This document shows positions 3,167 to 24,013 of a DNA stretch of 64,000 bases, piece after piece (positions within the stretch are counted from its first letter, which is position 1; every line of letters starts with the position of its first letter). The position numbers and the translations under genes were made by a program. The notes beneath the pieces were generated by a model, which saw only the letters and a program-made list of their open reading frames with translations, made no database searches and was not told where the DNA came from. Where the stretch lies: assembly GCF_021513195.1 (NCBI RefSeq), contig NZ_CP090974.1, positions 3,484,001-3,548,000 on the forward strand, written 5' to 3'. The stretch comes from Shewanella sp. OMA3-2 (GTDB taxonomy: Bacteria; Pseudomonadota; Gammaproteobacteria; Enterobacterales; Shewanellaceae).

Positions 3167-3387
3167 ATTTAATACCACTGCCAGGTGAGGCACATCTTAG
3201 GTGCTGATACAGCTGTAAAAAGTTCCGTTATGGTCAAGGTTATTACTCTAACATTTGTCTGTATGCGCGACTTCAGCTATCGAAAACTATCCACAATGCA
3301 AAACAGAATCTATCCATCGGTTAATTGCTGATGGTGATACCTGACACTCTGTCTATTGCAATGTTAATTATTAAAAGGATATACACA

Positions 3388-4836
3388 ATGCACGCAACAA
3401 ATAAATATTACAGCCAGACGATATTGGCTAGCACGATATTGATGGTAACCTTAGTCACTGGTTGTAACAGTGACAATGACGATGAAGCGACAACTGTGCC
3501 TGTCATTAACGCCAGTAACCCAATCGATTTTGCTATTGATGTCGCGATCAACCAACAAATCACAGTCACCTTTAGTGAAGCGATGAAACAGGCGACCATT
3601 AATGATGCCAGCTTTACCTTAACAGATCCGAACCAAACTGCCGTGTTAGGCGTGGTTTCTTACAATGAAACCAGCAATACCGCAGTATTTGCCCCAAGCA
3701 GTGACTTTTCACATAACACTATGTACAAGGCATCAATCACAACTGAAGTAACAAGTGTTGCAGGCATAGCGCTTGACAGTGACTTTAGCTGGGTATTTAC
3801 CACCTCTGCGCAACCAGATCTTACTGCGCCGACAGTGGTGTCAAACTCCCCTGCCAATGTAGCGCTGGATTTTGCCATAAATAGAAATCTGACCGCGAAG
3901 TTTAGTGAAGCCCTTAACCCTAATACTGTCAACGCGACAAGTTTTACCTTAAGTGATGGCACAAATAATGTCGCCGGTGTCATTAGCCTCCTAGGCACAA
4001 CGGCAAGCTTTAATCCAAATGATAATTTAGCCGCTAATACGCTTTATACTGCGACCTTGACGACGGCTATCAGTGATTTAGCAACCCCAGCTAATCAATT
4101 AGCAGCGAATTTTAGCTGGAGCTTTACCACCAGCGCAGTCGAGGCTCTTGGACCTGATCCTGTTAACTTAAAAAGTGCGAATAATTTTGTTATTTTAACT
4201 AAAACAGGTATTACCAATATTCCCGCTTCAGCAATAACTGGCAACATAGGTTCAAGCCCTATTACAGCAGCGGCAATGGATAATGTATTTTGTGATGAAA
4301 TTAGCGGCATCATTTATGGTGCGGATGCAGCTTATACCGGCAGTGGTATCATTAGTTGTTTTGCAGGCGCTGCTGTAGACAATACTTTAGTGGCAAGCGC
4401 TGTGCTTGATATGGGCACAGCCTATACCGATGCTGCGGGGAGAACCTTACCTGATTTTACTGAACTCGGTGCCGGTGATATCAGTGGTATGACATTGGAG
4501 CCTGGTCTATATAAGTGGAGTTCAGGCGTATTGATTTCTACCGACGTTACCCTGTCAGGCAGTGCTAATGATGTGTGGATTTTTCAAATAGCCGGTGACC
4601 TTACGCAGGCTAGCGCCAGTCGTATCAATTTACAAGGTGGCGCTCAGGCAAAAAATATATTCTGGCAGGTTGGTGGCAGTTCGGGTGTAGCGCTCGATAC
4701 CACTGCGCATTTTGAGGGTGTAGTCTTGGCTGAAAAAGGCATAAGTATAAACACAGATGCAACGGTTAACGGCAGATTAATGAGCCAAACCGCGGTCACT
4801 TTAGATCACAATACAGTGACTCAACCTACAGAGTAA
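3388..4836 (+). CDS. Ice-binding lipoprotein: two Big_5-type domains plus DUF3494 domain
   Basis: This 482-residue exported lipoprotein is likely a second ice-binding surface protein. The signal peptide ends in lipobox VTGC (Cys26, Asn at +2). Residues about 37-141 and 147-251 are two Ig-like domains of the Big_5 type, each carrying the motif TFSEA or KFSEA and ending in FTTSA. Residues about 254-482 form a DUF3494 domain with GGAQAKNIFW, the same motif as in the upstream protein. Two cysteines in the ice-binding domain (VFCDE and ISCFAG) could form a disulphide. An upstream in-frame start at base 3325 exists, but the ATG at 3388 has AAGGAT ahead of it and directly precedes the signal peptide. 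The stalk is unrelated in type to that of the neighbour, so the pair share the ice-binding head only. Confidence 0.88.
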   Translation: MHATNKYYSQTILASTILMVTLVTGCNSDNDDEATTVPVINASNPIDFAIDVAINQQITVTFSEAMKQATINDASFTLTDPNQTAVLGVVSYNETSNTAVFAPSSDFSHNTMYKASITTEVTSVAGIALDSDFSWVFTTSAQPDLTAPTVVSNSPANVALDFAINRNLTAKFSEALNPNTVNATSFTLSDGTNNVAGVISLLGTTASFNPNDNLAANTLYTATLTTAISDLATPANQLAANFSWSFTTSAVEALGPDPVNLKSANNFVILTKTGITNIPASAITGNIGSSPITAAAMDNVFCDEISGIIYGADAAYTGSGIISCFAGAAVDNTLVASAVLDMGTAYTDAAGRTLPDFTELGAGDISGMTLEPGLYKWSSGVLISTDVTLSGSANDVWIFQIAGDLTQASASRINLQGGAQAKNIFWQVGGSSGVALDTTAHFEGVVLAEKGISINTDATVNGRLMSQTAVTLDHNTVTQPTE

Positions 4837-4896: not shown

Positions 4897-5042
4897 TTTA
4901 TGCCACAACACCATACCTATACTCAATAACTTGAATTAGAAGTGCATCGAAAATGTCGACAGCCATCAGTAATAAACCCTACAATCTCGTTACCAATCAA
5001 AGATGTAAACTACTACCAAATCGAATTTCTGGTTTAGCTTCA

Positions 5043-5569
5043 TCAAGCCACTTTCACAGTAGCGGCTTTGGCCTGTAGCATTTCTAGGCTAAATAATAAC
5101 TTGTTTATTATCAATTTTATGGGTGTCGGTAAAGTATCGAGTTCTATCGACAACAGCAGATTTTTAACCTCTAATCCCAACTCAGTGTCCCCCTCAATTA
5201 ACAGCTTTCGTTGAAAAAAAGACTATCAGGATCTTCTTTACCTGAGGCGATGAGCAATAGCTCTGGAACATTTCCGCTGAAAATCACATCTGTTTGATTT
5301 AATTCTCTTACCACCACCTTAGGCTGAATGACTTGATTTATGCTTATCGCGAAATCGAGTCCGATATCAAGCACACTTATGCCAATCCATTTGCCGGCAA
5401 TAAAGTCCATCTCACCTGTTGCAAGTTGTTTACTAAGCGCTAGATTGATCAATTTAGCCATCACTTCTAACGTTAATTGCTTGGGTAGCCGATTCAAAGA
5501 ATGACGCGCCATGCAAGGGGCCGAGGTTAATATTTTTTGGGCTAGAGTGTGCTGCCAATCAAGTAACAT
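5043..5569 (-). pseudogene. ubiT: ubiT, SCP2-domain lipid-binding protein, frameshifted
   Basis: UbiT (YhbT) carries an SCP2 sterol-binding domain and supports oxygen-independent ubiquinone synthesis with UbiU and UbiV, probably by binding prenylated intermediates. The frame from base 5569 reads MLLDWQHTLAQ to DPDSLFF and then stops after 123 residues. If one T is added to the run of seven T on the coding strand (plus-strand A-run 5214-5220), the frame continues QRKLLIEGDTELGLEVKN to a stop at 5043. That gives about 175 residues, the usual UbiT length. The downstream sequence is therefore coding in the other frame, and the gene is broken by loss of one base in a homopolymer. It faces ubiU across 149 bases. 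A sequencing error or slippage that restores some product cannot be excluded. Confidence 0.85.
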
Positions 5570-5718
5570 GATGCGCTCCTACAGGGAATGAATAATAATT
5601 CAAGCCAGTTTACTCACATTTTATTCCTAGAAACCTGTTCCAAATCAAACCTTGTCAACTCAATCGCTTTTACACTCTTTGCCCTATCGACAATAACAAC
5701 AAAACTGCGAGAAAGATC

Positions 5719-6731
5719 ATGGAACTTTTGTGTCCTGCGGGTAACCTAGCGGCCTTAAAAGCCGCTTTTAATGCTGGCGCCGATGCCGTCTATCTTGGAT
5801 TAAAAGACGACACTAATGCGCGATCTTTTGCTGGACTTAACTTTTCAGCGGAACAAATAAAGCAAGCAAGTCAATTGGCTAAACAACAAAATAGAAAACT
5901 TTTTCTGACCTTAAACACTTTTGCTAAACCTGGCCATGAAGACCGCTGGCAACAAGCCATAGATCTCGCCGCCGACTTAGCGCTAGATGCGATTATTTGC
6001 GCCGATATCTCATTACTTGAATACGCCCATTATCATTACCCGAATTTACCCTTGCATTTATCTGTGCAAGCCAGTGCAACTAATGTCGCCGCACTGTCTT
6101 TCTACAAAAAACAATTCAATATTGAACGCGCTGTTTTACCTAGGGTGCTGTCGATGAAACAAGTCAGGGACTTAGCTAAGGTCAGCCTGGTTGATTTAGA
6201 AGTGTTTGCTTTTGGTAGCCTTTGTATTATGGCTGAGGGGCGTTGCCAGTTGTCTAGCTATGTGACGGGTCAATCTCCTAATACAGGTGGCTCATGCTCT
6301 CCCGCCAACCATGTTCGCTGGCAAGACGCCGGTAGCGACAAGTTAACCCGTCTAAATGAGGTGTTGATTGACAAAGCCAGTCAGCATGAACAACTAGGCT
6401 ATCCGGTGGTGTGTAAAGGGCGTTACCAAACAGATAGCGACATGACACCCGAATATATGCTCGAGTCACCTACTAGCTTAAATACCATGAGCCTTATTCC
6501 AGAGCTTGCCCAAGCAGGTATTCGCTCGCTTAAAATTGAAGGACGCCAACGAAGCCGGCCTATGTGACCCAAGTCACTCAAGTGTGGCGCCAGGCAATAG
6601 ATACCTACCTTCAATCACCAGAACGGTTTAACGACAAACTTAACAACCAACCTCAATGGCATTCAGCACTGGATAAAGTGTCTGAAGGTCAGGTCACCAC
6701 TTTAGGTGCATATGAACGTCAATGGCAATAG
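5719..6731 (+). pseudogene. ubiU: ubiU, U32-family Fe-S hydroxylation factor, frameshifted near the C-terminus
   Basis: UbiU (YhbU) pairs with UbiV in the oxygen-independent hydroxylations of ubiquinone synthesis and carries a 4Fe-4S cluster. The frame starts MELLCPAGNLAALKAAFNAG, and the four cluster cysteines are at 169, 176, 193 and 232, the same positions as in E. coli. After LKIEGRQRS (Ser279) the frame reads RPM and stops, giving 282 residues. Adding one C near 6556 restores SPAYVTQVTQVWRQAID through to GAYERQWQ and a stop at 6731, about 337 residues, close to the family length of about 331. About 58 C-terminal residues are lost as the sequence stands. All Fe-S ligands lie before the lesion, so partial activity is conceivable. 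ubiV follows after 11 bases, so the two form one transcription unit. Confidence 0.88.
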
Positions 6732-6742
6732 GGACTAATAAT

Positions 6743-7630
6743 ATGAAACTATCTCTCGGCCCCCTTACATATTGCTGGAATAAAATCAGCCTATTTGAGT
6801 ATTACCAAGCAATTGCTGACACTAAGATAGAGACCGTTTATTTAGGCGAAGTAATTTGCAGTCGCCGCCGTGAAATGAAATATAAAGATTACCTTGAATT
6901 AGCGCATATATTGACTGCAAAAGGTAAGAAGGTAATTCTGTCTACCATGACCTTAATTGAGTCACAATCAGAAATCAGTGAGCTTAAACGTATTGTTGAT
7001 AATGGTGAGTTTGCTATTGAAGCCAATGACATGGCTGCGGTCAACCTTGCCTCAGACGCTAATATCCCTTTTGTCTGCGGCCCATCATTGAACCTCTACA
7101 ATCGCGGCAGTCTTGATATCATGCAAAAATTAGGCATGACACGATTTGTAATGCCTTATGAATTGTCTAGGGCATGGCTTGAACAAGTATTGGCGCAAAG
7201 TACCACTCAGTTCGAAACCGAAGTATTAGGTTATGGCTACATGCCATTAGCACATTCTGCCCGCTGCTTTACCGCCAAGCATCATCAGAAGCCTAAGCTC
7301 GATTGCCAGACAGTTTGTCTGCAATACCCCAAAGGATTGTTGACACAAACTCAAGAGTCACAACCGCTGCTCAGATTAAACGGTATCCAAACTCAATCGG
7401 CGGCAAAAGTTAACTTAATTAATCAAATACCTTTAATGTCTAGAATCGGCGTCGATTATTGGCGATTGTCACCAACAGGACTTGATGATATTGAATTAGT
7501 TAATCAAATAGCATCCTGTCAGCACAATGAGTTAATAGAGATAACGCCGTCACATTCAGCTATAGAGTGTAATGGGTATTGGTTTGGTGAAGCGGGCATG
7601 CAGATTCATCAAGGTGTCACGGCACTATAG
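6743..7630 (+). CDS. ubiV: Ubiquinone biosynthesis protein UbiV (U32 family, 4Fe-4S)
   Basis: UbiV (YhbV) forms a heterodimer with UbiU for oxygen-independent ubiquinone hydroxylation. This copy is intact at 295 residues, starting MKLSLGPLTYCWNK; a start 21 bases upstream is possible but would overlap the ubiU tail. Cluster cysteines are Cys39 (GEVICSRRR), Cys175 (SARCFTAK), Cys188 and Cys192 (LDCQTVC), matching the family pattern C-X12-C-X3-C at the end. It lies 11 bases after the restored ubiU stop codon. The odd point is that its obligate partner ubiU and the third gene ubiT are both frameshifted here, leaving UbiV possibly without a job. Confidence 0.92.
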   Translation: MKLSLGPLTYCWNKISLFEYYQAIADTKIETVYLGEVICSRRREMKYKDYLELAHILTAKGKKVILSTMTLIESQSEISELKRIVDNGEFAIEANDMAAVNLASDANIPFVCGPSLNLYNRGSLDIMQKLGMTRFVMPYELSRAWLEQVLAQSTTQFETEVLGYGYMPLAHSARCFTAKHHQKPKLDCQTVCLQYPKGLLTQTQESQPLLRLNGIQTQSAAKVNLINQIPLMSRIGVDYWRLSPTGLDDIELVNQIASCQHNELIEITPSHSAIECNGYWFGEAGMQIHQGVTAL

Positions 7631-23079: not shown

Positions 23080-24013
23080 TTAGTCTGCTAATCCTATGCG
23101 ATTATCAAAATCTTGTACCTGCTGATCTAACCCTAAGAATAAATCAGTAAAATCGGTTTCAAGTAAACTTTTTACTGCCGGATGTTGGATCATACGTTCA
23201 GCAAACATGACATGATATTCTTCTTTAATATCGGTGGTTTCGCCTAACAAAACCATTCCTTGCGAAAGTATATCATGACGATAAATAGACGGGGCGACAA
23301 AAATACCCCGTTTAAAATATCCAAATGCTCTCATCATAGCCGCATCATCAAATTCGCCTAAAATACTGACATTGAGGTTTTTCTCTGCAAACCAGCGATG
23401 CAATTGTTGGCCTAATGATGTGCGGATCCCCGAGAATAAGTAGCTTCTCTTGCTCTAAACATTCAGGGAATTTAGCATCAATAGGATGAGCACAGAAAAA
23501 ACTGACCCCACATTCACCTAACTTTTTAGATAGAATATCAGTGTACTTTAATGCCTCACCGGCACAATCAGACAGTATCATATCAAGCTGATGTTCACGT
23601 AATCTAGCGATCAAGCTTTCGTGGGTAGACTCATAACACGCTAAATGTATCGAACCATCATGGGGAATGACGGTTAATAGCACCCTGCTTACCAATGCTT
23701 TGGACAAAGCATCAGCTATTCCGACTTCAAATAGTACAGATGAGTCTTTTTGATAGTTAAGTAAATCCAGCATTTCGTTGCTTAAATTAAACATTTTATC
23801 GGCATAACGATAAACAACTTCACCAAGTTCAGTAGCCTCTAAATTGCGCCCAACTCGCTTAAACAGCGCGCCCTTCAGCCGCCCCTCTAGCAAACGCATT
23901 TGACCAGTTATAGTTTGAGGCGCTAAACACAATGCTTCAGCAGCTTTAACTACTGAACCTTTTCGCTTAACCATCCAAAAATAATAAAGATGATTATAAT
24001 TAAGATGTTGCAT
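23080..24013 (-). pseudogene. nhaR: nhaR, LysR-type activator of nhaA, frameshifted
   Basis: NhaR senses sodium and activates nhaA. The N-terminal part starts MQHLNYNHLYYFWMVKRKGS, a typical NhaR helix-turn-helix start with AAAGG upstream; a longer upstream frame is unlikely. The frame reads to QEKLLILG and then leaves the family, ending CQYFRRI. One base earlier, in the adjacent frame, the sequence reads IRTSLGQQLHRWFAEKNL and continues to a stop at 23080. Deleting one G from the coding-strand run of four (plus-strand C-run 23428-23431) joins them into about 310 residues, the usual length. The lesion is in the effector domain, so the DNA-binding part would still be made, without its C-terminal third. 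Confidence 0.88.

Follow-up and report, generated by a model that had tools for sequence, protein, structure and literature searches.

Regarding ubiT, ubiU and ubiV, the genes of oxygen-independent ubiquinone biosynthesis, the window analysed here (64,000 nucleotides, bases 3484001-3548000 of a 4.09 Mb single-contig Shewanella genome) raises the question of whether ubiT and ubiU, each interrupted by a change of frame next to an uninterrupted ubiV, are broken in the organism or only in its assembled sequence.

Organization of the ubiT-ubiU-ubiV locus

Single-base frameshifts in ubiT and ubiU beside an intact ubiV had been described in the initial annotation, and they were confirmed by alignment with G035, the nearest relative, which was used as the reference for alignments, tblastn and dN/dS. 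In G035 all three genes are open and in identical order, and its alignment with window positions 5042-7615 (2576 columns, 85% identity) contains two gaps only, of one base each and located exactly at the ubiT and ubiU lesions. The features of the locus are as follows, in window positions:

5043-5569, minus strand: ubiT, whole extent, divergent from ubiUV
5198..5569, minus strand: open frame of ubiT, running beyond the frame change, an ORF of 123 aa with family sequence to about residue 118 (by tblastn to G035 UbiT)
5214-5220, ubiT on the minus strand: A7/T7 homopolymer (A7 on the plus strand), site of the ubiT frame change; G035 has one base more in this run
5046..5219 (end about 5046), minus strand: remainder of ubiT, shifted in frame, with 84% identity to residues 118-175 of G035 UbiT
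5719-6731, plus strand: ubiU, whole extent, with its stop at 6729-6731
5719..6567, plus strand: open frame of ubiU, 282 aa long and ended by a premature stop, with family sequence as far as residue 279
6555..6558, plus strand: CCGG, site of the ubiU frame change, a motif seen at 11 of the 24 scored lesions
6555..6731, plus strand: remainder of ubiU in another frame, then stop, 90% identical to G035 UbiU residues 280-337
6743..7630, plus strand: ubiV, intact, passing its curated cut-off (NF047965, 353.2 bits against 275)

The earlier observation that good family sequence continues past each lesion in a different frame also holds, and the identity of these pieces to the G035 proteins excludes a chance match. 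The first pieces alone pass the curated cut-offs of their families, that of ubiT with 75.3 bits against 46.9 for NF047962 (and 29.1 bits for PF02036) and that of ubiU with 440.6 bits against 440 for NF047963.

As in the oxygen-independent UbiT-UbiU-UbiV system of Escherichia coli, to the extent that it is described in the available sections of PMC6747719 and PMC10470549, three families score over their cut-offs and ubiT is divergent from ubiUV; the same sections agree with the initial annotation that UbiU and UbiV form a heterodimer and that UbiT is required. The cluster ligands of E. coli UbiU are given there as cysteines 169, 176, 193 and 232 (PMC6747719), and cysteines occur here at all four of these E. 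coli positions. All four precede the lesion, and if the lesions were real a truncated UbiU would retain the four cluster cysteines and lack about 58 residues. The locus differs from E. coli UbiTUV as portrayed in these sections solely by the two apparent frame changes, which are judged to be errors. Beside the ubi genes, an ice-binding protein (PF11999) with Ig-like domains is encoded at window positions 3325-4836, a neighbour that hints at a cold-adapted host.

Selection past the lesions

Relative to G035, dN/dS of the intact ubiV is 0.057. For ubiT the values are 0.182 before the lesion and 0.115 after it, and for ubiU 0.039 before and 0.118 after, the post-lesion figures being rough since they come from 55 codons of ubiT and 57 codons of ubiU only. 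Purifying selection continues to act on the post-lesion sequence of both genes (dN/dS 0.12), with no clear relaxation. No further in-frame stops were found past either lesion, and neither ubiT nor ubiU shows the relaxed selection or the additional lesions past the break by which a pseudogene would be recognized.

Split genes elsewhere in the chromosome

A wider comparison was made between 464 kb of this chromosome (11%) and 520 kb of G035, with ORFs of at least 100 aa called mechanically, the totals of 306 and 314 therefore including some non-genes. Of the 306 G035 ORFs with a match in these 464 kb, 22 are spread over more than one frame here; in the reverse comparison the same applies in G035 to 4 of 314 ORFs of this genome (Fisher P 2e-4). 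The 22 genes correspond to 23 multi-frame ORFs, since two of the ORFs overlap in antisense orientation at a single lesion. Three of the four ORFs split in the reverse direction are of 101-115 aa, and two of those three, inside the window, are without a family match. Within the window alone 56 G035 ORFs were matched, 52 of them covered over at least 90%, and three are split, namely ubiT, ubiU and nhaR; conversely, splits in G035 affect 2 of 61 window ORFs. Besides the ubi genes, two split genes are located as follows:

23083..24013 of the window, minus strand: nhaR (LysR family), interrupted by a one-base change of frame close to 23433, next to a C4 run
G000:C1:3436348-3439019 of the chromosome: mutS, split by a frame change

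The nhaR split, too, is most probably an artefact of the assembly. Among the genes affected are dnaG, tsaD, ispD, folB, uppP, purL, mutS, rlmN, ettA and oadA, with two lesions in purL, two gap rows in rlmN and one lesion each in uppP, folB, tsaD and dnaG, which lie within about 6 kb of one another. The break in tsaD falls near residue 80 of 337 and that in dnaG between residues 454 and 485 of 575, while ispD is broken close to the end of its 255 residues. All three of these genes are essential in E. coli. A search of the whole 4.09 Mb contig for second copies of dnaG, tsaD and purL found the broken copy only. That a living cell should carry all of these lesions is implausible, and most of them are therefore taken to be absent from the organism.

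With like breaks in many genes, some of them presumably indispensable, the lesions in ubiT and ubiU are most likely assembly errors as well. On these sequence comparisons both frame changes are, with high probability, errors of the consensus sequence, and the strain would possess an ordinary intact ubiT-ubiU-ubiV set. Of the two origins that had been offered for the breaks, recent change or error, the second is favoured and a recent biological loss is not, since like lesions occur in 22 of 306 ORFs, single-copy genes of essential type included. The suggestion that the pathway is dead or dispensable in this strain finds no support either, the same types of lesion being present in dnaG, tsaD, purL and others. 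Reading the breaks as errors keeps a lost pathway or a genetic switch from being wrongly claimed. The genome is a single contig rated "99.97% complete", yet over the 11% of it that was sampled about 7% of matched ORFs are split, mostly in two contexts, and with so many split ORFs pseudogene calls from this genome need reads. Some splits may be real, such as those of a 116-aa and a 389-aa ORF (67-85% identity) and that of a TetR-like gene with a 13-base gap.

Sequence context of the lesions

The 22 genes gave 33 gap rows, of which 24 were scored as lesions; the second gap of the 116-aa ORF, two frame-restoring insertions near the end of mutS and six gaps of one divergent tail were left out. CCGG lies within the 16-base context of 11 of the 24 lesions, compared with 1.9% of 20,000 random coding positions (P about 2e-13), and a homopolymer of at least 4 lies within 14 bases of 13 of them, compared with a background of 16.5% (P 3e-5). 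Either CCGG or a homopolymer accompanies 20 of the 24; the other four fit neither context, and two of these contain CCTGG. Of the two ubi lesions, that of ubiU belongs with the CCGG sites and that of ubiT with the homopolymers. Lesions in excess well beyond one pathway, few contexts, and single-copy dnaG and tsaD among the genes hit are the marks of systematic sequencing or assembly error, here most likely consensus error of the sort known from long reads.

On this view single-base indels have entered the assembly both at homopolymers and at CCGG. At CCGG a modified base within a CCNGG-like motif may have confused the base caller; the presumed cause would be DNA modification together with sequencing on a long-read platform. 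In the available sections of the nanopore literature, Dcm (CCWGG) motifs are the main place of consensus errors in Klebsiella pneumoniae, followed by homopolymers (PMC6591954), and elsewhere 6.5% of differences were attributed to methylation and 25.6% to homopolymers (PMC12392509). The lesions described here resemble the errors of nanopore bacterial assemblies, as reported in these sections and in PMC12007338, in being small indels at homopolymers and one GC-rich motif that split conserved genes; unlike the published errors at Dcm CCWGG, they lie at CCGG or a CCNGG-like site.

Besides the difference from the published motif and the four lesions outside both contexts, two further observations count against errors as the source. 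In all aligned DNA, gaps of 1-2 bases at well-aligned places are nearly balanced (131 deletions and 112 insertions), and few motif sites are shortened, 3 of 96 CCSGG and 3 of 332 CCWGG sites of G035 being one base shorter here. Errors would thus affect few sites, with their signal chiefly in coding frames. A/T runs of at least 8 in ORFs number 10 in 374 kb here and 24 in 419 kb in G035, which is consistent with run contraction and could also be a natural difference. Whether the ubiT lesion is real or an error cannot be told from its context alone.

Alternative explanations and the distribution of UbiTUV

Regarding a real and recent loss, which would leave the strain without UbiT and UbiU and living anaerobically on menaquinone, the distribution of the three proteins across the genus bears on both sides. 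Among 129 genomes, one per species and this one included, UbiV is present in 124, UbiT in 124, and a UbiU match better than 1e-100 in 124. In the other 123 genomes with UbiU, residues 1-337 are covered without a stop, whereas in this genome the match extends over residues 1-282. Elsewhere UbiT is a single match, save for extra decayed pieces in G071, and in G032 one stop was counted inside the UbiT match. G071 has two ubiU-ubiV loci (on C70 and C2), with ubiT beside one of them in decayed pieces. The near-complete genomes G095, G096, G114 and G118 lack UbiT and UbiV and have distant UbiU matches only; these are apparent natural losses of the pathway and show that it can be lost. UbiT and UbiV are also absent from G111, which is 52% complete.

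A recent loss in the present strain could draw on these four cases, on the fact that both lesions fall in one pathway, and on E. coli nitrate respiration, in which anaerobic ubiquinone and menaquinone are interchangeable according to the available sections of PMC10470549. The strong need for UbiUV in that respiration was shown, in the same sections, with a menA mutant. The four genomes are, however, without the whole set, and UbiU is truncated in none of the 123 other genomes. Two lesions in three adjoining genes are unremarkable at the rate of this assembly, as the uppP-folB-tsaD-dnaG stretch, purL and rlmN illustrate, and no relaxed selection is seen past the lesions. A recent loss is accordingly improbable, and there is a similarly small chance that the lesions of ubiT and ubiU are real and fixed in this strain within an otherwise error-ridden assembly. 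If so, no other of the 129 genomes of the genus would have UbiU shortened by a point indel next to a surviving UbiV.

Conspecific sequences were sought in the protein collection. The best UbiU showed 94% identity among the 120 listed of 7591 matches, and UbiT gave 9 matches, 8 of them non-self, with 77% identity for the best of these; no conspecific allele of UbiU or UbiT was found among the matches listed (for UbiU, the best 120 of 7591).

The initial annotation had further proposed that the ubiT homopolymer is a reversible on/off switch, phase variation between A7 and A8, a proposal that finds some footing in a tract of seven bases here and eight in G035. The tract could be scored in 15 loci (four from Shewanella, one from Ferrimonas and ten from MAGs of other groups), and in all 15 the T run at the ubiT site is at most 6, three loci having 6 and the other twelve 2 to 5; the four Shewanella loci have runs of 6, 6, 6 and 3. 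The long tract is therefore not conserved, and a long repeat tract retained in relatives, the mark of a contingency locus, was not found in these 15 loci. A/T runs of at least 7 are moreover commonplace in ORFs of this genome (87 in 374 kb), and a switch in ubiT leaves the ubiU lesion unexplained, so that phase variation is a still more doubtful account of the locus. Least credible is a hypermutator in which mutS, itself among the 22 split genes, is truly broken and real indels accumulate genome-wide: loss of mismatch repair does lead to more homopolymer indels, but such a defect would not be expected to favour the CCGG found at 11 of 24 lesions, broken single-copy dnaG and tsaD would be intolerable for a living cell if they are as essential as in E. 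coli, and an error is also the simplest account of the mutS break.

Scarcity of CCSGG and the C5 methyltransferase

Per base, CCSGG (CCCGG/CCGGG) has about half the frequency in this chromosome that it has in G035, with 67 sites in 464 kb compared with 156 in 520 kb of G035, and CCWGG is not reduced relative to G035 (G000:C1:3284001-3748000). The observed/expected ratio of CCSGG is 0.38 here and 0.64 to 0.90 in four relatives. The 96 CCSGG sites of G035 in the alignment include 14 that are retained exactly here and only the three already mentioned that are one base shorter, and the scarcity is thus mainly due to substitution and not to base loss; it may be a real avoidance or a different kind of miscall.

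A single putative C5 methyltransferase scores above the PF00145 cut-off in the genome, and a search of the genome with PF01555 gave a single match, below the cut-off. Methylation of CCSGG by this C5 methyltransferase was considered as a candidate and is unsupported, since there is no depletion of CCSGG in G003 (58 in 180 kb), where a 68% relative of the methyltransferase occurs, and the scarcity consists mostly of substitutions. G042 has no match to the methyltransferase and contains 38 CCSGG in 180 kb; close relatives of the enzyme were sought in G035, G004 and G042 and none were found. The methyltransferase, which has an N-terminal extension, is encoded in a defence-type island (positions 1555-10630 of L110, G000:C1:174001-194000) that also contains genes for an SNF2 helicase with ZorD/DpdE-like hits, an MzaB-like protein and two proteins matching PADLOC models of type II restriction.
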